NCBI RefSeq assembly: GCF_017355405.1
Contig: NZ_CP061178.1
Span: 310,001 to 374,000, forward strand
DNA from: Roseomonas haemaphysalidis
GTDB taxonomy: Bacteria > Pseudomonadota > Alphaproteobacteria > Acetobacterales > Acetobacteraceae
Direction of reading: 5' to 3'
Length of the DNA stretch: 64,000 nucleotides
Position 1 is the stretch's first letter; each line of letters opens with the position of its first letter. Both the position numbers and the translations under genes were made by a program. The notes beneath the pieces were generated by a model. The model made no database searches. It was not told the origin of the DNA and saw only the letters and a program-made list of their open reading frames with translations. This document shows, piece after piece, positions 11,211-28,564 of this stretch.

Positions 11211-11981
11211 CTACTCCGCCGTCCACCCGCCATCGACCAGCATCGCCGAGCCGGTCATCAGCGAGGAGGCGGCCGAGGCCAGGAACACCACCGCGCCCAT
11301 CAGCTCCTCCACCTGCCCGATACGCCCGAGCTTGATGCGCGATACGACGCTTTCGCGGAATGCGGGGTCCTGAAAGAACGGCGCGGTCATCGGCGTCTCG
11401 ATAAAGGTGGGGCCGATGCTGTTGACCCGGATGCGGTGCGGCGCGAGGTCGATGGCCATGGCCTTGGTCAGCCCTTCCAGCGCGTGCTTGCTGGCGCAGT
11501 AGACCGTGCGCCGCGCCCCGCCCACATGCCCCATCTGCGAGGACACATGGATGATGGAGCCCGGCCGCCCTTCCGCCACCAGCCGCTTGGCCACAGCCTG
11601 GGCGGTGAAAAAGGCGGCGCGCAGGTTGAGGTCCAGCACCGCGTCGAAATCCTCCACCGTCACCTCGGTGAAGGCGGCGGGGCGGTTGGTGCCGGCGTTG
11701 TTGACCAGGATGTCGTAGGCGGGCTGCCCCGCCAGCACAGCGGCGGTGGCCGCCGGTTCGTTGATGTCCAGGCATAGCGCGTCGGCGCTGCCGCCTTCCG
11801 CGCGGATCGCCTCGGCGGCTTCCTCGATCTCGGTCGCGGTGCGGGCCAGCAGGGTGACATGCGCCCCTGCCTCGGCCAGCGCGGCGGCCATGGCGAGGCC
11901 GATGCCCCGCCCCGCCCCCGTGACCAGCGCCCGCTGCCCGTCCAGCCGGAAGGATGGCGTGCGGGGGAGTTGCACCGTCAT
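11211..11981 (-). CDS. SDR family NAD(P)-dependent oxidoreductase
   Basis: Classical short-chain dehydrogenase/reductase, 256 residues. Cofactor motif TGAGRGIG (residues 21-28), NNAG at 94-97, the catalytic Ser in HVSSQM (147/148), and the YxxxK pair Tyr161/Lys165 are all present, with the C-terminal MLVDGGWTAE typical of the gluconate-5-dehydrogenase and FabG-like branch. The residue after the second beta strand is Arg (LLARTATE), hinting at NADP(H), which is inference. ATG 11981 overlaps the stop of the upstream 3-hydroxyacyl-CoA-dehydrogenase-like gene by four bases, so the two are translationally coupled. Probably acts on a hydroxy- or polyhydroxy acid together with its operon partners. 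Confidence 0.9.
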   Translation of the reverse strand: MTVQLPRTPSFRLDGQRALVTGAGRGIGLAMAAALAEAGAHVTLLARTATEIEEAAEAIRAEGGSADALCLDINEPAATAAVLAGQPAYDILVNNAGTNRPAAFTEVTVEDFDAVLDLNLRAAFFTAQAVAKRLVAEGRPGSIIHVSSQMGHVGGARRTVYCASKHALEGLTKAMAIDLAPHRIRVNSIGPTFIETPMTAPFFQDPAFRESVVSRIKLGRIGQVEELMGAVVFLASAASSLMTGSAMLVDGGWTAE

Positions 11982-12919
11982 GCCTCGGCGTCCTTCTTGT
12001 GGGCGGCCAGGGCCATCAGCCGGCGGTCCCGCCAGGCGCGGCGCTCCGCCAGGCCGTCGGCCGGCAGGACGGCGCGGCGCTGCGCCTCCACCGTGCCGAT
12101 GACCGCGTCATCCCAGACCTTGTGCTCGGCGGTCGAGGCGGCGATGGACCGGTACAACGGGCCCAGCCGGCGGGCGTAGTCGGCCACGCCGCCGGGCGCG
12201 TTGAGGTCGATGGTCTCGAAGGGGCCCATGAAGGCCCAGCGCAGGCCCAGCCCGTCCTTGACGGTGCGGTCCACGTCCTCGGCCGTGGCATAGCCTTCCT
12301 CGACCAGCCGCCATGCTTCCATCAGCAGCACGCCCTGCAGGCGGTTGAGGATGAAGCCCTCGATCTCCCGCGTCATCTCCACCGGGGACTGGCCGACCTG
12401 CTCCATCAGGGCACGCACCGACCGCACCGTTTCGGGCGCCGTCCAGGGCGCGGGCACCAGCTCCACCACCGGCGCCAGCGAGGGCGGGTTGACCGGGTGC
12501 GCCACCAGGCAGCGCGACCGGCAGGCCACGTGGTCGGTATAGGCCGAGGCCGGGATGCCGGAGGAGGAGGAGCCGACCAGCGTGTCCGGCCCGATCGCGG
12601 CATCGATGGCCGAGAAGACCTCGCGCTTCACGTCCAACCGCTCGAAGGTGCTTTCCTGGGCATAGGCGGCGCCGGACAGCGCATCGGCCAGGTCCCGCGC
12701 CACGCTGACGCGCCCGAGCACCGCTTCCGGCGCCTCGGCGATCAGCCCGTGGGCCGCGAGGTCGCGCAGCTGCTGCGCCACCACCTCCCTGCCCCGCTCC
12801 GCCGCGCCGGGCACGCTGTCATAAAGCGCCACGTCGCAGCCGGCGCGGGCGAAGACCACCGCCCAGCCGCTGCCCACCAGCCCCGTGCCGATCACGGCGA
12901 CCTTCACGGCGGCGGTCAT
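11978..12919 (-). CDS. 3-hydroxyacyl-CoA dehydrogenase family protein (lambda-crystallin/L-gulonate dehydrogenase type)
   Basis: 313-residue NAD-dependent dehydrogenase. The Rossmann motif [19 protein letters not shown] is at the N-terminus with Asp after beta-2 (ALYDS), indicating NAD. The catalytic-type segment [11 protein letters not shown] and HPVNPP (His of the dyad) match the lambda-crystallin/carnitine 3-dehydrogenase group, which acts on small free hydroxy acids rather than CoA esters. The C-terminal domain is the usual short single 3HCDH domain. ATG 12919 overlaps the stop of the upstream HisD-like gene (ATGA), and its own stop overlaps the next start in the same way. L-gulonate 3-dehydrogenase and carnitine 3-dehydrogenase are equally possible names; the substrate is open. 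Confidence 0.87.
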
Positions 12920-14223
12920 TCGGCGGCGGCGCCATAGGGCACGTTCTTGCCGCCGAAGCGGCGCACGCGCAGGTTGGCCTGCTCGCCATGGCCGATGAAG
13001 CCTTCCAGCGCGCACAGGCGCGAGCAGTATTCACCGATCATCGCCGAGGCCTCGTCCGTCAGCACCCGCTGGTAGGTGCAGGTCTTGAGGAACTTGCCGA
13101 CCCACAGGCCGCCCGTGTAGCGCGCTGCCTTCTTGGTCGGCAGCGTGTGGTTGGTGCCGATCACCTTGTCGCCATAGGCCACGTTGGTGCGCGGGCCGAG
13201 AAACAGCGCGCCGTAGTTGGTCATGTTGTTCAGGAACCAGTCCGGGTCGCGCGTCATCACCTGCACGTGCTCGGAAGCGATCTGGTCGGCGATCTTCAGC
13301 ATCTCCGCATCGTCCTCCGCGACGATCACGGCGCCGTGGCTTTCCCAGGCCTTCCGGGCGATGTCGGCGGTGGGCAGGATGCCAAGCAGGCGCTCCACCT
13401 GCGCCATGGTATCGCGCGCCAGCTTCTCGGAGGTGGTCAGCAGGATGGCAGGCGAGTCCGGGCCGTGCTCCGCCTGGCCCAGCAGGTCGGTCGCGCACAT
13501 CTCGCCGTCCACGCTCTCATCGGCGATCACCAGCGTTTCCGTCGGGCCGGCGAACAGGTCGATGCCGACGCGGCCGTAGAGCTGGCGCTTGGCCTCGGCC
13601 ACGAATGCATTGCCGGGGCCGACCAGCATGTCCACGCTCTCGATGCTTTCCGTGCCCAGCGCCATGGCGCCGATCGCCTGGATGCCGCCCAGGCAATAGA
13701 TCTCGTCCGCGCCCGCCATGTGCTGCGCGGCGACGATGGCCGGCGCCGGCTTGCCCTGGTAGGGCGGGGCCGCGGTGATGATGCGCGGCACGCCCGCCAC
13801 CTTGGCGGTGATGACGGACATGTGGGCGGAGGCCAGCAGCGGGTACTTGCCGCCCGGCACGTAGCAACCCACGGAGTTGACCGGCACGTTCTTGTGGCCC
13901 AGCACGACGCCCGGCAGCGTCTCGACCTCCACGTCCTTGAAGGCGTCGCGCTGCGCCTGGGCGAAGTTCTTCACCTGCTTCTGCGCGAAGGCGATGTCCT
14001 CCAGGTCACGGTCCTTGAGCTGGCCCATGCAGTCCTGGATCTCCGAGGAGCTGAGGCGGTAGCCGTCCCGGTCCCACTTATCGAAGCGCACGGACAGCTC
14101 GCGCACCGCGGCGTCGCCGCGTGCCTCGATGTCCAGCAGAATGGCTTCCACCGTTTCCCGGACCTGCTTGTCCGCGGTCTTCGCCGCCTCGACATCGGTG
14201 CCGCGCTTGAGCCACTGGGCCAT
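12916..14223 (-). CDS. Histidinol dehydrogenase-family enzyme (HpsN/sulfopropanediol 3-dehydrogenase-like)
   Basis: 435-residue zinc-dependent NAD dehydrogenase of the HisD superfamily. Family landmarks are [52 protein letters not shown] and [17 protein letters not shown]. The long conserved tail ([18 protein letters not shown]) belongs to catabolic HisD paralogs such as HpsN, which oxidises 2,3-dihydroxypropane-1-sulfonate to sulfolactate, rather than to biosynthetic HisD. No his genes are nearby. AGAGGA precedes ATG 14223, and a 16-bp palindrome lies 22 bases upstream. It is the first gene of a three-gene coupled unit behind a LacI regulator. The sulfonate substrate is a family-based guess; another polyol acid is possible. 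Confidence 0.85.
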
Positions 14224-14244
14224 GGGACGTCCTCTCGTCTGTCT

Positions 14245-14260
14245 TTGCATACGTATGCAA
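14245..14260. promoter_or_regulatory. Probable LacI-family operator (16-bp perfect palindrome)
   Basis: TTGCATACGTATGCAA is a perfect palindrome with the central CG that LacI-family proteins commonly kink. It lies in the 56 bases between the lacI-like gene and the start of the HisD-like gene, 22 bases upstream of that start. A repressor bound here would block the dehydrogenase operon. Binding by the adjacent LacI protein is inference. Confidence 0.75.
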
Positions 14261-14279
14261 GAAGTCTAGCGCAGCCGGC

Positions 14280-15350
14280 TCAGCCGCGCCAGACCCGTTC
14301 GCCATCCTGCAACGAAACCCCGTCATGCGGCTCCCGGGCGGAACCGCGCAGCAGCAGCGCCCCTGGCACGGTTTCCCGCAGCGGGGCCTCGTCCGGCGCC
14401 AGCATCTGGCGCATCAGGGCCGTCACCACGCGGTCCACCATGGGTCGCAAGGGCTGGCTGTAGGTGGTCAGGCCCAGCGCCGCCCAGCCGGCCGGCCCGG
14501 CATCGTCGAACCCCACCACGGACACCGGCAGCCCGCCGAATTCCCGCCGCGCCACCCCCAGGGCCGCGAAGCCCATGTGGTCGTTGGCACAGAACAGCGC
14601 GTCGGGCGGCGCGGCGGCGGACAACAGCACGCGCGTGGCGGCCTCCGCCCGCCCGAAGTCGTAATGCCCCACCGCGCGCAGCGGCGGGCCGAACCCCAGC
14701 GCCGCCAATTCGGTGGCGAACCCCGCTTCGCGCTCGCGGCTGGTGGAGGCGTCTTCCAGCCCGGCCAGAAACGCCGGCCGCCGGTGCCCGCCGGCGGCCA
14801 GAAAGCGCGCGATCAGCGCCGCGCCGCCGGCGTTGTCGCCGGTGATGCAGGCGGCGCCATCGTCCTCGCTGCGGCGGTTGACCAGCACCACCGGCACCCC
14901 CGCCTGGCGGCATTCCCGCGCAAAGCGCGACGACAGGCCGACCGAAGCCAGCACCAGCGCATCCACCCGGTAGCGCAGCACCTCCTCCAGGATCGGGTCC
15001 GTGTTGGCGCCGGGGCGGGCGGTGAACAGCAGCACGCGGTGCCCGGTGGCTTCCAGCGCCACGGACAGGGCGTCCAGCAACGCCGCGTAGAAGGGATTGT
15101 CCAGATAGGCCACGGCGACGCCCACGATGCTGGACCGCCGCGTGATCAGCGACCGTGCGATCAGGTTGGGCCGGTAGCCCAGCGCCGCCGCCGCTTCCTC
15201 CACCCGCGCCCGGGTGGCGGCCGACACGCTGGCGCCCGGCGTGAAGGCCCGCGACACCGCCGACTGGGACACGCCCGCCCGCCGCGCCACGTCATGGGCC
15301 GTGGCGGCACGCTCGGGGCGGCGGGGCGGGGCAGCAGGAGGCTTGGACAT
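14280..15350 (-). CDS. LacI family transcriptional regulator
   Basis: 356-residue repressor-type regulator. The N-terminal helix-turn-helix reads TAHDVARRAGVSQSAVSRAF, with the hinge helix YRPNLIARSL following, then a periplasmic-binding-like effector domain (VGVAVAYLDNPFYAALLDAL, FCANDHMGFAALGVARR, VSVVGFDDAG). It lies directly upstream of, and on the same strand as, the HisD-like operon, with a perfect palindrome between them, so local control of that operon is the simplest reading. A ~15-residue Pro/Arg-rich leader precedes the HTH. The effector is probably a hydroxy acid or sugar acid; the sequence does not show which. Confidence 0.92.
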   Translation of the reverse strand: MSKPPAAPPRRPERAATAHDVARRAGVSQSAVSRAFTPGASVSAATRARVEEAAAALGYRPNLIARSLITRRSSIVGVAVAYLDNPFYAALLDALSVALEATGHRVLLFTARPGANTDPILEEVLRYRVDALVLASVGLSSRFARECRQAGVPVVLVNRRSEDDGAACITGDNAGGAALIARFLAAGGHRRPAFLAGLEDASTSREREAGFATELAALGFGPPLRAVGHYDFGRAEAATRVLLSAAAPPDALFCANDHMGFAALGVARREFGGLPVSVVGFDDAGPAGWAALGLTTYSQPLRPMVDRVVTALMRQMLAPDEAPLRETVPGALLLRGSAREPHDGVSLQDGERVWRG

Positions 15351-18297: not shown

Positions 18298-18750
18298 GTG
18301 TCCATGCCCGTTCACGAAGCCTTCGGGGCTGAGCTGCGCCGCGTGTTCTTCCGCTGGCGCAGCCATTTCGACAGCGAGCTGCGCGCTTCCGGCCAGACGC
18401 TGGCGCGCGCCCGGGCCCTGGCGGTGCTGGCGCCGGAACCGGAGGGGCTGCCGCAACGCGATCTCGCCCTTGCCCTGTCGATCGAACATCCGACGCTGGT
18501 GCGCCTCCTGGACGGCCTGCAGCAACAGGGCCTGGTCACCCGCCTGCCCGCCCCTGGCGACCGCCGCGCCAACCGCGTGGCGCTGACCCCCGCGGCCGGC
18601 CCCGTCGCGGACGAGGTGGTGGAGATCTCCGCTCGCCTGCGCGAACGCGTGCTGGAGGGCATCGACGATGCCGAGCTCGCCACGGCGCTGGACGTGCTGC
18701 GCGCCATCAGCGCCAACCTTGATGCCTTGTCCACGGAAGCCCGGTCATGA
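18298..18750 (+). CDS. MarR family transcriptional regulator
   Basis: 150-residue winged-helix repressor. The DNA-binding part reads PQRDLALALSIEHPTLVRLLDGLQ (recognition helix) followed by the wing LPAPGDRRANRVALT, where the D-x-R-A/S-x-x motif is typical of MarR/SlyA proteins. A C-terminal dimerisation helix ends the protein. The start is probably GTG 18298, with AGGA six bases upstream; ATG 18304 is possible. The stop overlaps the exporter start by four bases (ATGA), so regulator and pump are one operon. It most likely represses its own operon through the palindromes just upstream and is released by a toxic ligand. Confidence 0.9.
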   Translation: MSMPVHEAFGAELRRVFFRWRSHFDSELRASGQTLARARALAVLAPEPEGLPQRDLALALSIEHPTLVRLLDGLQQQGLVTRLPAPGDRRANRVALTPAAGPVADEVVEISARLRERVLEGIDDAELATALDVLRAISANLDALSTEARS

Positions 18751-20362: not shown

Positions 20363-21424
20363 ATGAGCCTGAACTTCTTCAAGTCCCGCGCCACCATCCC
20401 GGTGCTGCTGGTCGGTGTCGCCGGCGTGCTGCTGGTGCTGCACGCCTGGCGCCTACCGCCCTTCACCACCACGGAGGAGGTGACGGACAACGCCTATGTG
20501 CGCGGGCTGGTCACCGTGATCAGCCCCCAGGTGGCCGGCTATGTCACCGAGATCCCGGTGCAGGACTACATGGAGGTCAAGCAGGGCGCTTTGCTGGTCC
20601 AGATCGACGACCGCATCTACCGGCAGAAGCTGGAGCAGGCGCGCGCCACGCTGGCGTCCTCTCAGGCCAATCTCACCAACCTCGCTGTCACCATCGAGAC
20701 GCGGGAAGCCAGCATCGCCGTGTCCCGCGCCCAGGTGCAGAACGCCGAGGCGGTGCTGACCAAGGCGGACGCGGATAATGACCGCATCGCGCCGCTGGTC
20801 GCCTCCAACATCCAGTCGCGCGCCACGCTGGTGACCACCCAGGCGGCCTTGCAGCAGGCCCGTGCCGGGTTGGCACAGGCGCGCGCCTCCGTGACGGTGG
20901 CCGAGCAGAACCTGGCCGAAACCCAGGCCACCCGCGCCACGCTGGAAGCCAGCGTGCACAATGCCGAGGCCGCCGTGCGCCTGGCCGAGATCGACCTGCA
21001 AAACACCCGTGTGGTGGCGCCCGAGGATGGCCGACTCGGCGAGGTCGGCGCCCGTGTGGGGCAATACGTGCAGGCCGGCACACAGTTGACCACCGTGGTG
21101 CCGCCGCGCCGCTGGGTGGTGGCCAACTACAAGGAAACCCAGCTCGCCGGCATGCAGCCCGGCCAGCCGGTGCGCTTCACCGTCGATGCGCTGGGCGGCG
21201 CCGAGATGCGCGGGCGGATCGAGCGTTTCTCGCCCGCCACGGGCTCGGAATTCAGCGTCATCCGCGCCGACAACGCGACCGGCAACTTCACCAAGGTGGC
21301 GCAGCGCCTGCCGGTGCGGATCTCGATCGACGAGGGGCAGGAGCTCGCGGCGCGGCTACGGCCGGGCATGTCCGTGATCGCGCATATCGACACGGCGGCG
21401 GCACCGGCCACCGCCGCGCCCTAG
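20363..21424 (+). CDS. HlyD/EmrA family membrane fusion protein
   Basis: 353-residue periplasmic adaptor. One N-terminal membrane anchor (PVLLVGVAGVLLVLHAWRL) is followed by the biotinyl-lipoyl half motif EVTDNAYVRGLVTVISPQV, a long alpha-helical hairpin rich in Ala, Gln and Thr (residues ~95-200), the second lipoyl half LQNTRVVAPEDGRLGEVG, and beta-barrel VANYKETQLAGMQPGQPV. This order is standard for EmrA. It links the upstream EmrB-type exporter to an outer membrane channel not encoded here. Its stop shares the palindromic tetramer CTAG with the stop of the convergent lacI gene. Confidence 0.92.
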   Translation: MSLNFFKSRATIPVLLVGVAGVLLVLHAWRLPPFTTTEEVTDNAYVRGLVTVISPQVAGYVTEIPVQDYMEVKQGALLVQIDDRIYRQKLEQARATLASSQANLTNLAVTIETREASIAVSRAQVQNAEAVLTKADADNDRIAPLVASNIQSRATLVTTQAALQQARAGLAQARASVTVAEQNLAETQATRATLEASVHNAEAAVRLAEIDLQNTRVVAPEDGRLGEVGARVGQYVQAGTQLTTVVPPRRWVVANYKETQLAGMQPGQPVRFTVDALGGAEMRGRIERFSPATGSEFSVIRADNATGNFTKVAQRLPVRISIDEGQELAARLRPGMSVIAHIDTAAAPATAAP

Positions 21425-22461
21425 CGCGTCGAACCCCGCACTTCCAGCGTGCCGGGCAGGGACACGATCTCGTCCTCCAGCGGCGCGCCGCCGATGCGCG
21501 CCAGCAGCAGGTCCAGCCCGCGCGCCACCATCGCCGGCAGCGGCTGGACCACGGTGGTGAGGCGGTAGGGCGGGCGGGCGGCGGCGCCGATGCCGTCCAT
21601 GCCCACCACCGCCACATCCCCCGGCACGGTCAGCCCGGCCTCGCGCAGCGCATCCATGGCCCCCATGGCCAGGATGTCGCTGACCCCGAACACCGCGTCG
21701 GGGCGCTCGGCCGCCGGCATGGCCGCGATGGCCTGCCCTGCCGCGAAGCCTTCCGGGTGCCCGGCGCCCCCTGGCAGCACCAGGGGTGCCGGAAGCCCGG
21801 CCGCCTGCACCGCCTGCGCGAAGCCCGCCACACGCTCCGTGCTGGTGGAGGTGCCGGCATTGCCGGCGATCACCGCCATGCGCCGGTGCCCGCCGTCCAG
21901 CAGCAGCCGCGCCAGAGCGGCGCTGCCGGCCATGTTGTCGCAGGACACGGCGCTGCCATGCTCCCGCGCCACGCGGTTCAGCATCACCAGCGGCACGCGG
22001 TTGGCGGCGCAGATGGCGGCGGCGCGCGACGACAGCGTGGCGGAGGTGATCAGGCAGCCATCCACCCGGTATTGCAGCAGCGCCTCGGCGGTCGCGTCCT
22101 CGATCGGGCCGCGGCCGGCATGGAGCAGCAGCAGGCGCCAGCCGCGCTCGGCGGCCTGCGACACGGTCTGCTGCATCAGCTCGGCATAGAAGGGGTTGTC
22201 CACGGGCCCCAGCACCAGCCCGATCAGGCCGCTGCGGCCACTGACCAGCGTGCGGGCCAGGACATTGGGCGTATAGCCCGCTTCCTGGGCCAGCGCGACG
22301 ATGCGCTCCCGCACCTTGGGCGAGATGCGCGGGTCGTCGCGCAACGCGCGCGACACGGTGGACGCGGCGACACCGGCCCGGCGGGCGAGGCTGGCCACCG
22401 TGGCGCGCACCGGCTGCGCCCCGGCCGGGTCGGGAAGGCCGGCGGGAGGGCGGTCATCCAT
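21421..22461 (-). CDS. LacI family transcriptional regulator (controls leuCD-like operon?)
   Basis: 346 residues from ATG 22461; a TTG at 22497 would extend it by 12. The HTH reads TVASLARRAGVAASTVSRAL, the hinge YTPNVLARTL, and the effector domain LVLGPVDNPFYAELMQQTV and VFGVSDILAMGAMDALREAG. It is divergent from the hydratase/lyase operon, with ~175 bases between them that contain an AAGCGCTT core, the classic LacI/CcpA-family operator centre. It probably represses that operon until its substrate, perhaps a branched dicarboxylate, is present; that effector assignment is inference. Confidence 0.9.
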   Translation of the reverse strand: MDDRPPAGLPDPAGAQPVRATVASLARRAGVAASTVSRALRDDPRISPKVRERIVALAQEAGYTPNVLARTLVSGRSGLIGLVLGPVDNPFYAELMQQTVSQAAERGWRLLLLHAGRGPIEDATAEALLQYRVDGCLITSATLSSRAAAICAANRVPLVMLNRVAREHGSAVSCDNMAGSAALARLLLDGGHRRMAVIAGNAGTSTSTERVAGFAQAVQAAGLPAPLVLPGGAGHPEGFAAGQAIAAMPAAERPDAVFGVSDILAMGAMDALREAGLTVPGDVAVVGMDGIGAAARPPYRLTTVVQPLPAMVARGLDLLLARIGGAPLEDEIVSLPGTLEVRGSTR

Positions 22462-22515
22462 GCCCGCGCCGTTAGCAGCCGGGCCTTGGCGGTGCAATCA
22501 CGCCGACCGACGCCA

Positions 22516-22530: not shown

Positions 22531-22636
22531 CGATGCGGGGACGTGCTATCGTTTGCGCATATGCCGGGTCGCAGCCTGGCGGCAAACGAGCAGCGCCCGG
22601 CGCCCCGCCGCGGCCTGCCATGGAGGGAGCGGCGCC

Positions 22637-23923
22637 ATGCGGGACGGCACCATCACGCAGAAGATCCTGGCCGCGCATGCGGTTGGCGGCGAGGCCCCGG
22701 CCGGCGCCATCGTCACCATCCGCCCGGACGTGGTGCTGCTGAACGACGTGTCCGGCCCGCTGTCCTTCGAGCAGTTCGATCGGATGGGCGCGGCCCGACC
22801 CTTCGACCCCGAGCGCATCGTGCTGGTGGCCGACCACTTCGCCCCCGCGCCGGACATCGTGGCGGCCGGCGCCATCGCCCTGACGCGCGATTTCGCCAAG
22901 GCACACGGCATCCGCCATTACTACGAGCCGGGCCGCGGCGGCATCGAGCACACGCTGCTGGCGGAGCTCGGCATGGTCGGCCACGGCACCATCGTCTTCG
23001 GCGCCGACAGCCACACCTGCACGGCAGGCGCCTTCAACGCCCTGGGCATCGGCTTCGGCTCCACCGACCTCGCCGGCGCCCTGGCCATGGGGCAGCTCTG
23101 GATGCGCGTGCCCGACAGCATCCGCGTCGAGCTGACCGGGCAGCCCGGCCCCTATGTGACGGGCAAGGACGTGATCCTGGAGCTGATCCGCCGCATCGGC
23201 TCGGACGGCGCCGCCGATGCCGCGCTGGAATTCGGCGGCCCGGGCGTGGCGGCGCTGGCGATCGACGAGCGGATGGCGGTGGCCAACATGGCGGTGGAGG
23301 CCGGTGCCGACACCTGCGTGTTCGAGGGCGATGCGGCGTCCACGGCCGACATGGTCAAGCGCGGGGTGCCGGCGGCCGCGGCCGTGGCCGCCGACCCCGA
23401 CGCCGTGTATCGCCAGCGCATCGAGATCGACCTTTCCTCGCTGACGCCCATGGTGGCCAGGCCCCCCTCCCCGGCCTCGGGCGTCGCGGTCGGTGCCCTG
23501 CGCGGGCAGAAGGTGGACCAGGTCTATGTCGGCAACTGCTCCAACGGCACCATGACCGACCTGCGGCAATGCGCCGAGATGCTGCGCGGCCGGCAGATCG
23601 CCCCCGGCGTCCGCATGGTGGTGGTTCCCGCCACCCAGAAGATCTGGCGCGAGGCGCTGGCGGAAGGGTTGCTGGATGTCTTCGCCGCCGCCGGCGCCGC
23701 CGTTTCCACCCCCACCTGCGGCGCCTGCTTCGGCGGCCACATGGGCATCCTGGCCGCCGGCGAAACCGCCATCGCCACCACCAACCGCAACTATCGCGGC
23801 CGCATGGGGCACCCGGACAGCCAAGTGTTCCTGGCCAATGCCTGGGTCGCCGCCGCCGCCGCCGTGGCCGGCGAGATCGTCCCGCCCGAGGACGTCGCCC
23901 GCATGCTGGAGACCGTTGCATGA
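22637..23923 (+). CDS. Aconitase-superfamily hydratase large subunit (LeuC/DmdA-like)
   Basis: 428-residue [4Fe-4S] hydro-lyase large subunit, closer in length to homoaconitase/DmdA types than to 466-residue E. coli LeuC. Iron-sulfur ligands are visible: GNCSNG and the CxxC in TPTCGACFGGHMG. Substrate-site segments include FGADSHTCTAGAFNALGIG and NRNYRGRMGH. GGAGGGAG precedes ATG 22637. It overlaps the small subunit by four bases and is followed by an isocitrate-lyase-family enzyme rather than leuB, so leucine synthesis is unlikely. In Eubacterium barkeri nicotinate fermentation the same pair is dimethylmaleate hydratase plus dimethylmalate lyase; a similar alkylmaleate or citraconate hydration is my inference. 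Confidence 0.88.
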   Translation: MRDGTITQKILAAHAVGGEAPAGAIVTIRPDVVLLNDVSGPLSFEQFDRMGAARPFDPERIVLVADHFAPAPDIVAAGAIALTRDFAKAHGIRHYYEPGRGGIEHTLLAELGMVGHGTIVFGADSHTCTAGAFNALGIGFGSTDLAGALAMGQLWMRVPDSIRVELTGQPGPYVTGKDVILELIRRIGSDGAADAALEFGGPGVAALAIDERMAVANMAVEAGADTCVFEGDAASTADMVKRGVPAAAAVAADPDAVYRQRIEIDLSSLTPMVARPPSPASGVAVGALRGQKVDQVYVGNCSNGTMTDLRQCAEMLRGRQIAPGVRMVVVPATQKIWREALAEGLLDVFAAAGAAVSTPTCGACFGGHMGILAAGETAIATTNRNYRGRMGHPDSQVFLANAWVAAAAAVAGEIVPPEDVARMLETVA

Positions 23924-24411
23924 GCACCTTTCAGGGCCGCGTTCACCGCTTCGGCGACGAGGTGAACACCGACGTCATCCTGCCCGGCCGCTACCTGTCC
24001 CTGCGCAAGCCGGAGGAGCTGGGCCAGCACTGCATGGAAGGGCTGGACCCTGACTTCGTGAAGCGCGTGCGGCCGGGCGACATCCTGGCCGTCGGCCGCA
24101 ACTTCGGCTGCGGTTCCTCGCGCGAGCATGCGGTGATCGCGCTCAAGGCCGCCGGCGTCGCGGCCATCGTGGCGCACAGCGCGGCGCGCATCTTCTTTCG
24201 CAACGCCGTCAACCTCGGCCTGCCCGTGCTGCTTTGCCCCGAGGGTGCGGCGGCGCTGCGGGCGGACGAGGACGCACGCATCGACCTGGACAGCATGACC
24301 GTGGCGCAGGGCAGCATGCAGTGGCAGGCCTTGCCGCTGGGCGATGAAGTCCGCGCCATCCTGGCCGCCGGCGGGCTGGTGCCGCGCGTCCGCGCCGCGC
24401 TGGCGGCTTAA
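23920..24411 (+). CDS. Aconitase-superfamily hydratase small subunit (LeuD/DmdB-like)
   Basis: 163-residue swivel-domain partner of the upstream large subunit. Landmarks are the N-terminal GRVHRFGDEVNTDVILPGRY and the substrate-carboxylate loop FGCGSSREHAVIALKAAG, followed by ARIFFRNAVNLGLPVL. The short length matches archaeal-type LeuD/DmdB, not the ~200-residue enterobacterial LeuD. ATG 23920 overlaps the large-subunit stop (ATGA), giving stoichiometric expression. Together they should hydrate or isomerise a dicarboxylic or tricarboxylic acid; the loop residues between the two Ser and Arg are conserved and do not fix the substrate. Confidence 0.9.
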   Translation: MSTFQGRVHRFGDEVNTDVILPGRYLSLRKPEELGQHCMEGLDPDFVKRVRPGDILAVGRNFGCGSSREHAVIALKAAGVAAIVAHSAARIFFRNAVNLGLPVLLCPEGAAALRADEDARIDLDSMTVAQGSMQWQALPLGDEVRAILAAGGLVPRVRAALAA

Positions 24412-24439
24412 GAACACTCCAAAGAGGAAAGACACACAC

Positions 24440-25330
24440 ATGGCCGATCCCCGCCTCAAGGCAGCCCTCGCCGCCAAGCAGTTCGTCGTCGCCCCCGGCA
24501 TCTTCGACATGATCTCCGCCCGCATCGCGGACCGCATGGGCTTCAACGCGCTGTATGCCACCGGCTACGGCACTGTCGCCTCGCATCTCGGCATCCCCGA
24601 CGCGGGCGTGGCCACCTTCACCGACATGGTGTCCCGCATGGCGCGCTTCGCGCAGGGCAGCACCACGCCGGTGATCGCCGATGCCGACACCGGCTACGGC
24701 GGCCTGCTGAACGTGCGCCACACCGTGATGGGGTATGAGGCCGGCGGCGTGACGGCGATCCAGCTGGAAGACCAGGAAGTGCCCAAGAAGTGCGGCCACA
24801 CCCCCGGCCGCCGCGTGATCCCGGCCGAGGAGATGGCGCTGAAGATCGAGGTCGCCGCGGAGGCCCGCAAAAGCAGCGACTTCCTGATCATCGCCCGCAC
24901 CGACGCCCGCACCACGCTGGGCCTGGACGAGGCGATCCGCCGCGGCAAGCTGTACCGCCAGGCCGGCGCCGACATCGTCTTCATCGAAAGCCCGGAATCC
25001 GAGGACGAGATGAAGCGCATCGGCCAGGAGATCGACGCGCCGCTGCTGGCCAACAACGTCGACGGCGGCGGCCGCACGCCGATCCTGTCGGCCGAGAAGC
25101 TTGCCTCCTTCGGCTACGACATCGCCATCTACCCGGCGGTGGGCTTCCTGACGGTCGCGCAGGCGCTGGAGAATTCCTACCGCCACCTGCTGCAGCACGG
25201 CGACACCAACGGCCTGCCCGAGGGCGTGATCTACGACTTCGGCAAGATGAACGAGCTGATGGGCTTCCCCGAGGTCTGGGACTTCGACAAGCGCTGGGCG
25301 CGGCCGGACGCCAAGCAGGCGGCGGAATAA
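24440..25330 (+). CDS. Isocitrate lyase/PEP mutase family C-C lyase (2,3-dimethylmalate or alkylmalate lyase-like)
   Basis: 296-residue TIM-barrel lyase. Mg-binding DADTGYGG and the active-site loop QLEDQEVPKKCGHTPGRRVIP (in part) are present. The KKCGH cysteine is the general acid found in true lyases (isocitrate, 2-methylisocitrate, dimethylmalate) and absent in the PEP mutase, phosphonopyruvate hydrolase and oxaloacetate decarboxylase branches. AGAGGA lies before ATG 24440. Encoded 28 bases after the hydratase small subunit, it would cleave the hydrated product to pyruvate (or glyoxylate) plus a carboxylate. There is no prpC or prpD nearby, which argues against the methylcitrate cycle. The exact substrate is unproven. 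Confidence 0.87.
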   Translation: MADPRLKAALAAKQFVVAPGIFDMISARIADRMGFNALYATGYGTVASHLGIPDAGVATFTDMVSRMARFAQGSTTPVIADADTGYGGLLNVRHTVMGYEAGGVTAIQLEDQEVPKKCGHTPGRRVIPAEEMALKIEVAAEARKSSDFLIIARTDARTTLGLDEAIRRGKLYRQAGADIVFIESPESEDEMKRIGQEIDAPLLANNVDGGGRTPILSAEKLASFGYDIAIYPAVGFLTVAQALENSYRHLLQHGDTNGLPEGVIYDFGKMNELMGFPEVWDFDKRWARPDAKQAAE

Positions 25331-25337
25331 CGCCGCC

Positions 25338-26474
25338 ATGCTGGCGATGAACTTCGCGACCACCCCGCGCATCGTGCTGCGCGACGGCGCGCTGGACAAG
25401 CTGCCGGCGATCCTGGCCGAGTTCGGCGTCCGCCACGTGGCCTTGGTCACCGACGCCGGGCTGGTGCGCGCCGGGCTGGTGGCGCCGGTGGAGGCATCGT
25501 TGCGCGCGGCGGGGCTTTCCGTCACGCTGTATGATGCCGTGCAGGCCGACCCGCCGGAGCACATCGTGCTCGGCGCGGTGGAGCAGCTGCGGGCGGCGGG
25601 CGTGGATGGCGTCTTCGCCCTCGGCGGCGGCAGCGCCATGGATGTCGCGAAGCTGGTCGCCTACCTGCTCCGCTCGCCCTGCGCGCTGGACACCATCTAC
25701 GGCGTCGACCTCGCCCGCGGCGCGCGCCTGCCGCTGGTGCTGGCGCCGACCACGGCCGGCACCGGGTCCGAGGTCACGCCCATCTCCATCGTCACCACGG
25801 CGGGCGACGAGAAGCGGGGCGTCGTGTCCCGCCGCCTGTTGCCCGATGTGGCGCTGCTGGACCCTGCGCTGACGCTCGGCCTGCCCGGCCCGGTGACGGC
25901 GGCCACCGGCATCGACGCCATGGTGCATGCCATCGAGGCCTTCACCAGCAAACGCCTGAAGAATCCGCTATCGGACGTGCTGGCGCAGCAGGCGCTGGCG
26001 CTGCTTTCGGCCAACCTGCCGCGCGTCCTGGCGAACGGCAGGGATGTCGAGGCGCGCGGCGCCATGCTGCTGGGCTCCTGCCTCGCCGGCATGGCCTTCG
26101 CCAATGCGCCGGTGGCTGCCGTGCACGCGCTCGCCTATCCGCTGGGCGGTCGCTACCACGTGCCGCACGGGCTTTCCAACGCGCTGATGCTGTTGCCGGT
26201 GCTGCGCTTCAACCTGGCCGCCGCCGCGCCGCTCTACGCGCAGCTCGCCTCCTCGGTGGGCGCCACGGCGCAAACGGCGGAGGGCTTCCTGGCGGCCATC
26301 GAGACGCTGGTGGCGGGCTGCGACATGCCCAAGCGGCTGCATGAGCTGCAGGTGACGCGCGACAGCCTGCCGCAGCTGGCGCGCGACGCCATGCAGCAGC
26401 AGCGCCTGTTGATCAACAACCCGGTGGAGGTCTCCGAGGCCGACGCCCTGCGGCTCTACGAAGAGGCGTTCTGA
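25338..26474 (+). CDS. Iron-containing alcohol dehydrogenase
   Basis: 378-residue group III dehydrogenase. The NAD-binding GGGSAMDVAK, the TAGTGSEVT loop, and metal ligands in GIDAMVHAIEAF and the HALAYPLGGRYHVPHGLSNAL stretch (two spaced His) are intact. It starts seven bases after the lyase stop, so it is in the same operon. Members oxidise or reduce short alcohols, lactaldehyde, 4-hydroxybutyrate or maleylacetate; here it could produce or reduce an acid semialdehyde entering or leaving the hydratase-lyase route. ATG 25347 (MNFATTPR) is an alternative start. Confidence 0.9.
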   Translation: MLAMNFATTPRIVLRDGALDKLPAILAEFGVRHVALVTDAGLVRAGLVAPVEASLRAAGLSVTLYDAVQADPPEHIVLGAVEQLRAAGVDGVFALGGGSAMDVAKLVAYLLRSPCALDTIYGVDLARGARLPLVLAPTTAGTGSEVTPISIVTTAGDEKRGVVSRRLLPDVALLDPALTLGLPGPVTAATGIDAMVHAIEAFTSKRLKNPLSDVLAQQALALLSANLPRVLANGRDVEARGAMLLGSCLAGMAFANAPVAAVHALAYPLGGRYHVPHGLSNALMLLPVLRFNLAAAAPLYAQLASSVGATAQTAEGFLAAIETLVAGCDMPKRLHELQVTRDSLPQLARDAMQQQRLLINNPVEVSEADALRLYEEAF

Positions 26475-26511: not shown

Positions 26512-27504
26512 ATGACAACAAAGACCATCCTGACCCGCCGCGCCCTTGGCGGGCTGGCCGCCGGCCTGCTCGCCACCCCTGCCCTGGGCGCCCCCGCTGC
26601 CGCCGCCTGGCCGGACCGGCCGGTGCGCATGGTGGTGCCCTTCGGGGCCGGCGGCGCCATCGACACCCTGGCCCGCGTCTTCGGACAGCGCTTCCAGGAA
26701 TTCGCCAACGGCCAATCGCTGGTGATCGAGAACCGCTCCGGCGCCGGCGGGCTGGTGGCGGGCGCCTATGTGACGCAGCAGCCGCCCGACGGCTACACGC
26801 TGATGATGGCCGACATCGGCGCCAACGCCATCGGCAAGGAATTGAACCCGCGCATCGGCTACGACCCGATGACCGGCTTCACGCCCATCATGCAGGGCGC
26901 CAAGCTCAACGCGACGCTGATGGCCAATCCCAAGGTCAAGGAGCAGACGGTCGCCGAGATCATCGCACGCGCCAAGGCGGAGCCGGACTACTACACCTAT
27001 GCCTCGGCCGGCGTCGGCAACGGCAGCCACCTGTTCATGGCGCTGCTGGAACGCCAGGCCGGCATCTCCATGGTGCACGTCCCCTACCGCAGCGGTTCCG
27101 AGGCCGTTACGGCGGTGATGCGCGGCGACGCGCAGTTCGTGTTCCCCACCCTGTCCTCCGGCCTGCAGATGGTGCGTGGTGGCCAGATCCGCGCGGTGGC
27201 CATGGGCGGCCCGGCGACGGACATGCTGCCCGGCGTGCCCGCCATCGCGGACACGCTCCCCGGCTTCGACGTCGCCATCTGGTACGCCTTCGCCGCACCG
27301 CCGGGCATGGACCCGGCGCTGGCCGACCGCATCAACGCGGTGCTCAACCAGATCGCGGCACTGCCCGAGGTGCGCAAGGCGGTGGCCGAAAGCCAGGCGG
27401 GCGTCGTGGTCGGCGGCACGCGAAAGGAATTCGCCGACTTCCTGAAGGCCGAATACGACCGCTGGACCCCGGTGATCCGCGAAGGCGGCATCCGCGTCGA
27501 GTGA
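26512..27504 (+). CDS. Bug/TctC family periplasmic solute receptor
   Basis: 330-residue tripartite tricarboxylate transporter substrate-binding protein. The leader LTRRALGGLAAGLLATPALG has a twin-arginine, Tat-like pattern. Mature motifs are typical: WPDRPVRMVVPFGAGGAIDTLAR, VIENRSGAGG, DGYTLMM, VPYRSGSEAVTAV and GMDPALADRINAVLNQI. These receptors bind carboxylates such as citrate, glutamate, nicotinate or aromatic acids. No TctA or TctB membrane gene is in the window, so it either uses a remote pair or acts as a sensor. It lies 37 bases after the iron dehydrogenase gene, suggesting the operon substrate is a carboxylic acid. Confidence 0.92.
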   Translation: MTTKTILTRRALGGLAAGLLATPALGAPAAAAWPDRPVRMVVPFGAGGAIDTLARVFGQRFQEFANGQSLVIENRSGAGGLVAGAYVTQQPPDGYTLMMADIGANAIGKELNPRIGYDPMTGFTPIMQGAKLNATLMANPKVKEQTVAEIIARAKAEPDYYTYASAGVGNGSHLFMALLERQAGISMVHVPYRSGSEAVTAVMRGDAQFVFPTLSSGLQMVRGGQIRAVAMGGPATDMLPGVPAIADTLPGFDVAIWYAFAAPPGMDPALADRINAVLNQIAALPEVRKAVAESQAGVVVGGTRKEFADFLKAEYDRWTPVIREGGIRVE

Positions 27505-27510
27505 CGCGGC

Positions 27511-27530
27511 GCCCGGCTTGGCGGCCGGGC
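27511..27530 (+). terminator. Intercistronic hairpin after Bug receptor gene
   Basis: GCCCGGC (27511-27517), loop TTGGCG, GCCGGGC (27524-27530): a 7-bp GC stem with no T tract. It may protect or attenuate transcript between the receptor and P1 peptidase genes. Weak evidence. Confidence 0.35.
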
Positions 27531-27553
27531 GGCGGGGCCCCAGGATGGCGGGC

Positions 27554-28564
27554 ATGGACCTGAACCTGCTGACCGACATCCCCGGCCTCCGCGTCGGCCA
27601 TGCCACCGACCCGGCGCTGGGCTCCGGCGTCACCGCCATCCTGTTCGATGCGCCGGCCGTCGCCGCCGTGGCCATCGGCGGCGGTGCCCCCGGCACGCGC
27701 GACACCGACCTGCTGCGCACCGACATGACGCTGGAGCGCGTGGACGCCATCGTGCTGTCCGGCGGCTCGACCTTCGGGCTGGACGCGGCGGGGGGCGTGC
27801 AGGCGGCACTGCGGGAAGACGGGCGCGGCATCCGCTTCGGCGGCGTGAACGTTCCACTGGCGCCCCAGGCCATCCTGTTCGACCTGCTGAACGGCGGCGA
27901 CAAGGACTGGGGCCGCTTCAGCCCGTACCGCGAACTGGGCTACCAGGCGGCGCGCGCCGCCGCCACTGGCGCCTTCGCGCTCGGTTCCGTGGGCGCCGGC
28001 ACGGGGGCCACCACAGCCACGGTCAAGGGCGGGCTGGGCTCGGCCAGCACCGTCACGGCGCAGGGCCACCGCGTGGCGGCGATCATGGCGGTGAACGCGG
28101 TCGGCACGCCGTTGATCGGCGATGGCCCCTGGTTCTGGGCTGCGCCCTTCGAATGCGGCAACGAGTTCGGCGGGCGGGGCCTGCCGGAGTTCCGCCCGGA
28201 ATACCTGACGCCGCGCCTGAAGGGCGGTCCTGGCACCGCCACCACCATCGGGCTGGTGGTGACGGATGCGGCGCTATCCAAGGTCCAGGCCCGGCGGCTG
28301 GCCACCATGGGGGACGACGGGCTGGCCCGCGCCATCCTGCCCGCCCATGCGCCGACCGATGGCGACACCCTGTTCGCCGCCTCGACCGGGACGCGGGAGT
28401 TGCACGATCCCATCGCCGAGCTCACGCAACTCGGCCATGCGGCGACCCAGGTGGTGGCAAGGGCCGTCGCGCGCGCCATCTACCATGCCCGGTCCCTGGC
28501 CTGGCCCGGCGCGCAGCCGGCCTGGGTGGACCGATTCGAAAGCGGAAAGGCGACACACGCATGA
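27554..28564 (+). CDS. P1 family peptidase (DmpA/L-aminopeptidase-D-esterase type)
   Basis: 336-residue autoprocessing Ntn-type hydrolase of the DmpA family. It opens with LTDIPGLRVGHATDPALGSG, a family hallmark, with SGGSTFGLDAAGGVQAAL and GSVGAGTGATTATVKGGLGS in the middle. The nucleophile created by self-cleavage should lie in the GTATTIGLVVTDAALSK region, where a Thr replaces the more usual Ser, matching the Thr/Ser variation in the family. It may act as an amidase or esterase on the substrate imported by this operon. I chose ATG 27554 because AGGA lies upstream; ATG 27545 is also in frame. Its stop overlaps the next start (ATGA). Confidence 0.87.
   Translation: MDLNLLTDIPGLRVGHATDPALGSGVTAILFDAPAVAAVAIGGGAPGTRDTDLLRTDMTLERVDAIVLSGGSTFGLDAAGGVQAALREDGRGIRFGGVNVPLAPQAILFDLLNGGDKDWGRFSPYRELGYQAARAAATGAFALGSVGAGTGATTATVKGGLGSASTVTAQGHRVAAIMAVNAVGTPLIGDGPWFWAAPFECGNEFGGRGLPEFRPEYLTPRLKGGPGTATTIGLVVTDAALSKVQARRLATMGDDGLARAILPAHAPTDGDTLFAASTGTRELHDPIAELTQLGHAATQVVARAVARAIYHARSLAWPGAQPAWVDRFESGKATHA

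Follow-up and report, generated by a model that had tools for sequence, protein, structure and literature searches.

A LacI-linked operon of Roseomonas haemaphysalidis pairs a LeuCD-type hydratase with an isocitrate lyase-family enzyme, a candidate route for alkylmaleate breakdown

Introduction

What does a LeuCD-type hydratase do when its genes run directly into that of an isocitrate lyase-family enzyme? The question is raised by an operon of Roseomonas haemaphysalidis (Acetobacteraceae; 8 contigs totalling 4.9 Mb), which lies in a stretch of 64,000 nucleotides analysed here as a whole and called the window (contig NZ_CP061178.1, positions 310,001 to 374,000; G000:C2:310001-374000). Its genes hydL and hydS, for the two subunits of the hydratase (HydLS), overlap by ATGA; 28 bases separate hydS from the gene of a lyase of the isocitrate lyase/phosphoenolpyruvate (PEP) mutase superfamily with the motif KKCGH, and the gene of an iron-containing alcohol dehydrogenase (Fe-ADH) begins 7 bases on. 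A preliminary description of this DNA had reported that arrangement, all of which is present in the sequence, and had read it as a catabolic alkylmalate route. A similar pair is found in the nicotinate fermentation of Eubacterium barkeri, where dimethylmaleate hydratase (DmdAB) works with 2,3-dimethylmalate lyase. Here, we find that hydratase, lyase and a tripartite-transporter binding protein form a conserved unit with a divergent LacI regulator, that the hydratase stands apart from biosynthetic LeuCD and the lyase from PrpB of the methylcitrate cycle, and that the two enzymes are likely to hydrate and cleave a malate-type acid in a coupled manner.

Results

Conservation of the hydratase-lyase unit

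Relatives of hydL were taken from named genome contigs (the best 80 of at least 584), from plasmids and from genomes of the family, and wherever the GNC motif described below was present, the surrounding genes were scanned with the proteins of the window. After removal of 11 loci whose hydL was identical to one already counted (L031, L039, L078, L148, L150, L151, L152 and L157-L160), 58 loci were left: 24 close relatives (hydL of at least 675 bits; the window itself excluded), 13 of betaproteobacterial type and 21 others. Neighbours were counted within 7.5 kb of hydL; some contigs end near hydL, and absences there are soft. Among the close relatives, a lyase of at least 350 bits lies on the same strand in 22 of 24, as does TctC, and a LacI gene of at least 300 bits on the opposite strand in 20 of 24, standing about 3.5 kb off in L023, L038 and L162. 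Since 22 distinct relatives carry the lyase beside hydL, the arrangement is not a matter of chance, and the functional coupling of hydratase and lyase put forward in the preliminary description is supported. The Fe-ADH, which that description had counted in the set, has fared differently: it accompanies hydL in only 6 of the 24, being present, for example, on the annotated Roseomonas marmotae plasmid p1318-4 and missing from Pseudoroseomonas cervicalis plasmid pL11-C. We therefore reject it as a core pathway step. The conserved unit is a LacI regulator divergent from hydL-hydS-lyase-TctC, with the Fe-ADH as an optional addition.

The pairing extends beyond these relatives. Superfamily lyases of other lineages stand beside the hydratase branch in 8 of the 13 betaproteobacterial-type loci, on the opposite strand only in 7 of these and on both strands in L052 (Zwartia; order GntR, hydLS, TctC and a lyase of 354 bits), and also in 6 of the 21 other loci. 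That the hydratase has been joined to more than one lineage of lyases is the best indication that the two enzymes act in series. This recurrence is also the setting in which to weigh an alternative suggested by the names that sources give to homologues of hydL and the lyase, which include 3-isopropylmalate dehydratase and oxaloacetate decarboxylase: that a spare leucine-type isomerase and an oxaloacetate hydrolase or decarboxylase are neighbours by accident, with no pathway between them. We consider this very improbable, given the order conserved in 22 of 24 relatives together with a regulator and an operator-like site, the distance of the large subunit from the genome's own LeuC, and a proline where the acetylhydrolase has serine.

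Two further loci are recorded here. The same genome holds a second set of TctC, LeuCD-like and PrpB-superfamily lyase genes (L026; C3:196000-215900), in which the hydL-like protein is about 35% identical and carries the motif GSCTNAR and the lyase is 35% identical, so that the pairing recurs with a hydratase of the ordinary motif. The species label of L041, a metagenome-assembled genome (MAG) with the record title Bordetella parapertussis, looks doubtful, since its hydL and the one from Zwartia hollandica form a pair in the hydL tree (100/100).

An operator-like sequence upstream of hydL

Between the divergent genes lies TGCTATCGTTTGCG, the sole exact match of the pattern TGCWANCGWTTGCR in the source genome. 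In 16 of 25 operons, that of the window included, such a match stands no more than 260 bases ahead of hydL; L022, L023, L024, L035, L038, L040, L149, L161 and L162 have none, although L022 and L035 have near matches. A second, weaker copy starting [CT]GCAA[AT]C stands further upstream in 15 of the 16 (none in L067), at an offset of 51-68 bases (58 in eleven, 68 in three and 51 in the window). A search of 14 genomes found the exact pattern at 12 places, namely at the operon in 9 of the 9 operon-bearing genomes of the genus searched (a tenth, G1070, lay outside the search) and at three other places in two operon-bearing genomes (G1031:C41, G107:C40 and G107:C144), in whose 3-kb surroundings no obvious regulon gene was seen. 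Four genomes of the genus in which the hydratase motif has no match lacked the pattern, as did G011, which has the operon; the reversed pattern, used as a control, matched once in the 14 genomes. With two mismatches allowed, the window gave 7 matches against 7.9 expected, which is not above chance, so that the argument for an operator is drawn from the exact matches and from the fact that they are conserved. We infer that the divergent LacI protein binds this sequence.

HydLS is distinct from biosynthetic LeuCD

The domains of both subunits (Table 1) and three cluster cysteines (301, 361 and 364, aligned to 4kp1/4kp2) place HydLS in the aconitase/isopropylmalate (IPM) dehydratase superfamily. 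With the IPM/citramalate isomerase of M. jannaschii it has the family, the cluster cysteines and GSSRE in common, at 325 bits to 4kp1 and 152 bits to 3vba, but it differs in having GNCSNGT for GSCTNGR and YLSL for YLVY, and in the lack of leucine genes in the window. HydL passes subfamily models only and no LeuC equivalog, scoring 493.5 bits against a cut-off of 610.65 for TIGR02083 (the LEU2 equivalog) and 195.9 against 560.25 for TIGR00170. At the first cluster cysteine, 118 of its 120 closest homologues read GNC[SA]NGT and 2 read GNCANGS. The M. jannaschii IPM isomerase, homoaconitase, the LeuC proteins of Monoglobus and Ruminococcus and the genome's own paralogues instead read GSCTN[GSA]R, and the G[ST]CTN[GSA]R cluster motif of biosynthetic LeuC is not found in hydL. 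In a tree of 57 sequences, hydL falls among 14 alphaproteobacterial rows that form a clade (100/99). The sister of this clade is one of 8 betaproteobacterial rows (100/99), and E. coli LeuC and the LeuC of the same genome, which pair together, lie far from hydL. The absence of leuA, leuB, prpC and prpD, noted earlier from the open reading frames, was borne out by tblastn with E. coli LeuA, LeuB, PrpC and PrpD, which gave no match in the window at E≤1e-3; E. coli LeuC and PrpB each found one place there, the hydL and the lyase gene, respectively. Scores, motif, tree and missing leuA/leuB together lead us to reject a biosynthetic LeuCD, in agreement with the earlier suggestion that the large subunit is of another kind.

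HydS scores 178 bits with the NCBIfam LeuD/DmdB subfamily model, above its cut-off of 109, and the likeness to DmdAB is seen at the level of this model. Its recognition loop reads YLS. Among the 24 relatives, 18 have YLA there, 3 YLS and 3 YLT; 3vba has YLV and the homoaconitase 2pkp, with arginine, YLR. This loop region is reported to decide substrate preference (PMC7308503). The small residue in HydS argues against a homoaconitate-like charged side chain and names no substrate. Maleate hydratase activity is reported for M. jannaschii LeuC (PMC8307300), a point in favour of a cis-butenedioate substrate.

A LeuC of Monoglobus, encoded in a cimA-leuC-leuD-leuB operon, is 46% identical to hydL, and for this reason the hydL branch may descend from an enzyme of that type, and its ancestor may have been an isomerase. 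HydLS might accordingly, like IPM isomerase, turn an imported 2-alkylmalate (citramalate or 2-isopropylmalate) into a 3-alkylmalate, which the lyase would split into glyoxylate and a fatty acid, much as aconitase and isocitrate lyase act on citrate. Against this, the arginine of GSCTNGR in the IPM isomerases is lost across the whole hydL branch, and none of ten further annotated window genes is a glyoxylate-assimilating gene. Hydratases with GNC[SA]NGT were seen in Proteobacteria, Bacillota, Acidobacteria, Actinomycetota, Thermoplasmatota and other groups. A different catabolic setting for a GNC-motif hydratase is found in L066 (MAG JAJXSZ010000004.1), where it is followed by genes of 2-hydroxyacid dehydrogenase, phosphoesterase, HpcH/HpaI aldolase and galactarate/altronate dehydratase type. 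On a Peribacillus frigoritolerans plasmid (L126), a LeuCD-like pair stands between a CoA-transferase gene and one that bears the name hydroxymethylglutaryl-CoA lyase, apparently another, CoA-dependent, catabolic use of LeuCD.

The lyase lies outside the PrpB family

The metal-site residues of the lyase (D54, D81, D83 and E110) and R153 are in place, and its catalytic residues are intact; among its 120 closest homologues KKCGH is kept in all and the glutamate metal ligand in 119. Superfamily, metal site and catalytic cysteine are those of PrpB (2-methylisocitrate lyase), but the TEF/FPEA motifs are lacking, and the score against the PrpB equivalog model is 248.5 bits, below the NCBIfam cut-off of 354.4. 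In a tree of 38 rows the lyase falls in a clade of 17 (100/100), apart from a PrpB clade of 4 rows (99/97) that holds the genome's own PrpB-like protein (C1:2675808). This tree has several long branches, and the program warns that its deeper joins are unsure; it leaves out the repeated loci L026, L027, L031 and L039, matches below 140 bits (among them the genome's own lyase C1:1591236) and six more rows, of which one was partial and the others near-duplicates. Dimethylmalate lyase 3fa3 pairs with the acetylhydrolase 3lye (100/100) outside the 17-row clade, and the 25-row fork that takes in both has support of only 86/82.

Residue 237 is leucine in all 120 homologues. At this place arginine is found in the four named PrpB chains inspected (1mum, 1o5q, 6t4v and 3eoo), in 4iqd and in the genome's PrpB-like protein, tyrosine in petal death protein, glycine in dimethylmalate lyase and alanine in oxaloacetate acetylhydrolase. 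To judge from this pattern, Leu237 would mean that a contact to a third carboxylate is missing, and the replacement of the PrpB arginine is thus a pointer to a substrate with two carboxylates. Score, separate clade and missing arginine lead us to reject the PrpB of the methylcitrate cycle as the identity of this enzyme, in support of the reading in the preliminary description. Serine at the place of residue 232 is a marker of oxaloacetate acetylhydrolase; it is present in 3lye and in petal death protein (1zlp), whereas all 120 homologues have proline, as does dimethylmalate lyase, and oxaloacetate acetylhydrolase is rejected on this ground. The separation from oxaloacetate decarboxylases, which the preliminary description also required, is seen so far in scores, with 92 bits to 3b8i against 195 bits to petal death protein.

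Petal death protein, an oxaloacetate/alkylmalate lyase by activity, is the best match in the Protein Data Bank (PDB) and resembles the lyase in Tyr43 and KKCGH, but apart from its serine it differs in standing outside the 17-row clade on a long branch. Residue 43 is tyrosine in 64 and phenylalanine in 56 of the 120 homologues, in place of the glycine or alanine of the PrpB sequences compared; isocitrate lyase has tryptophan there. This would favour conversion of a 2-alkylmalate followed by cleavage to glyoxylate, but petal death protein has Tyr43 and accepts 2-alkylmalates, so that residue 43 does not decide, and we regard that route as unlikely. P. aeruginosa PrpB, as described in PMC11982470, holds pyruvate by Tyr45, Ser47, Gly48, Gly49 and Arg160; the aligned residues of the lyase are Tyr39, Thr41, Gly42, Tyr43 and Arg153. 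The oxoacid site is thus kept in a more crowded form, and glyoxylate is a possible product. The same paper assigns KRCGH to PrpB and KKCGH to isocitrate lyase (PMC11982470). This motif does not discriminate by itself, because petal death protein and 4iqd have KKCGH as well.

These residues bear on another alternative, in which the compound hydrated by HydLS is cis-aconitate or 2-methylaconitate and succinate is released by the lyase, acting as isocitrate or methylisocitrate lyase. The TctC-type uptake gene would suit such tricarboxylates, as would a hydL relative linked to TcuA and PrpF (L111, below) and the arginine that the opposite-strand lyases of the betaproteobacterial loci and the L061 lyase carry at the PrpB place; a named dimethylmalate lyase can, moreover, sit in a methylcitrate set, as reported for R. 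rubrum Rru_A2318-A2320 (PMC8471276). We nevertheless hold it improbable, since Leu237 replaces arginine in 120 of 120 homologues, the lyase clade is separate from the PrpB clade with the genome's own member, and 0 of the genome's 2 citrate synthase and 0 of its 5 MmgE/PrpD places are in the window. One of those MmgE/PrpD genes (C3:409050) adjoins another lyase of the genome (C3:407554), which carries the PrpB-type arginine.

Substrate clues from neighbouring genes

In L024 the order is FAD hydroxylase, hydL, hydS, lyase and a gene weakly like maleate isomerase/arylmalonate decarboxylase (best PDB match 41 bits); the best PDB matches of the hydroxylase are PnpA and 6-hydroxy-3-succinoylpyridine 3-monooxygenase. 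This setting would fit a cis-butenedioate intermediate, and together with the lyase residues it favours a dicarboxylate. In L058 (Sulfobacillus) an acyl-CoA synthetase gene follows the lyase; its product could activate the fatty acid that cleavage after isomerisation of a 2-alkylmalate would release.

Distribution and surroundings of the operon

Within the family, 21 of 397 genomes have the exact hydratase motif, and within the genus 10 of 14 do, a patchy distribution; in a phylum sample it was found in 1 of 398 genomes, and a class scan (E≤1e-125) gave 1 of 385, the source genome alone in both cases. The features of the operon are listed in Table 1. The actual start of the LacI protein is probably an ATG further inside the listed frame. 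The S58 gene is found near the operon in only 3 of the 24 close relatives.

Between window positions 18298 and 30397, genes for MarR, MFS and HlyD upstream and for S58 and FdhD downstream are common to the R. marmotae plasmid p1318-4 (L109); these shared flanks suggest that C2 could be a plasmid contig or that the region could be transferred from one replicon to another. Elsewhere in the window (11214-15350, minus strand), genes for an SDR oxidoreductase, a 3-hydroxyacyl-CoA dehydrogenase-like protein, a histidinol-dehydrogenase-like protein and a second LacI regulator lie side by side, resembling catabolic HisD-like (HpsN-type) gene sets rather than histidine synthesis.

Table 1. Features of the operon and its flanks, in window positions.
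Feature	Position	Strand	Domains, motifs and remarks
LacI-family regulator	21421..22497	- (divergent)	PF00356/PF13377; listed ORF starts TTG
Operator-like sequence, presumed LacI site	22544..22557	+	exact match of the pattern given in the text
hydL, aconitase-superfamily (LeuC-like) [4Fe-4S] hydratase large subunit	22637..23923	+	PF00330; GNCSNGT
hydS, LeuD/DmdB-type small subunit	23920..24411	+	PF00694; loop RYLSL, GSSRE motif
Isocitrate lyase/PEP-mutase superfamily lyase	24440..25330	+	PF13714/PF00463; KKCGH at residues 116-120
Fe-ADH, accessory	25338..26474	+	PF00465/PF25137
TctC-type periplasmic binding protein, tripartite tricarboxylate transporter	26512..27504	+	PF03401
S58 (P1/DmpA) peptidase-family protein, doubtful operon member	27518..28564	+	PF03576; listed ORF starts TTG

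Discussion

The explanation that we favour, to which we give about an even chance, is that a LacI-controlled operon encodes hydration of an alkylmaleate-type cis-butenedioate by HydLS and cleavage of the resulting alkylmalate by the lyase at C2-C3. Extracellular capture of a small organic acid would fall to the TctC-type protein. The [4Fe-4S] hydratase would then hydrate, at its cis double bond, a substrate with a maleate core and a small alkyl group, such as citraconate or dimethylmaleate. Finally, the KKCGH lyase would cut the alkylmalate to a short carboxylate and a 2-oxoacid, which would be pyruvate, or glyoxylate if C2 carries hydrogen. LacI would repress the operon until the substrate or an intermediate binds, and the Fe-ADH, where present, might handle a side product or a precursor alcohol, which is a guess. 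The alkylmaleate class is our best single guess as to substrate, each compound taken singly being improbable. Of the alkylmalate route first proposed, the coupling and the separation from LeuC and PrpB have stood and the emphasis on Fe-ADH has not; alkylmaleate as substrate and pyruvate as product remain at the level of prediction.

By analogy, the operon may work like DmdAB and dimethylmalate lyase, which likewise pair a LeuCD-type hydratase with a lyase of this superfamily. It is unlike the E. barkeri system in its LacI and TctC neighbours and in the hydratase motif GNCSNGT, and 0 of 17 annotated window genes look like nicotinate fermentation.

Several observations weigh against alkylmaleate hydration followed by cleavage. 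The lyase is not nearby in 2 of the 24 close hydLS relatives (L040 and L149), and it appears also to work without the hydratase: it was found in 40 of 200 family genomes searched (E≤1e-120), and just 7 of the 40 belong to the set of 21 that have the exact hydratase motif, whereas 33 do not; in one of the 7 (G891) lyase and hydratase lie on different contigs. From loci in which the lyase stands without an adjoining hydratase, 20 were fetched and the 15 with a called lyase gene were counted (the genome of L173 has the hydratase elsewhere); in 8 of the 15, TctC immediately precedes the lyase gene on the same strand, and the neighbours give no substrate clue. From this TctC placement it appears that cells can import the lyase substrate itself, the hydratase widening the diet. 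No TctA gene stands beside TctC, 0 of the genome's 4 being in the window (3 are on C1 and 1 on C3), and no downstream assimilation gene was recognised. On a Hydrogenophaga plasmid (L111), a 52% identical hydL relative with the same YLS loop accompanies TctC, TcuA (tricarballylate dehydrogenase) and PrpF, with no lyase found, which points to aconitate-like, tricarboxylate substrates for part of the hydratase branch. The threonine of GNCSNGT is nearer to the serine that true aconitases have there than to the arginine of IPM isomerases. Finally, the arginine comparison covers four PrpB chains, the 2-methylisocitrate lyase entries 9hra, 9hgk, 9hgo and 9hhs having been left out.

No description of this operon was found in the open-access literature, subscription journals being mostly outside the search, and no curated model matched here names a cis-butenedioate hydratase activity for the GNC[SA]NGT class. 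We propose tentatively, and with somewhat less than even confidence, that these hydratases are a separate catabolic class of cis-butenedioate hydratases and that the operon is an aerobic alkylmaleate pathway with direct, CoA-independent cleavage of the alkylmalate. If this is true, the CoA-free pair of hydratase and lyase would be a short route for acids of the kind handled by the itaconate cluster of P. aeruginosa, and a function would be given to a LeuC-like branch that several sources now name 3-isopropylmalate dehydratase, a label by which models of leucine biosynthesis can be led astray.

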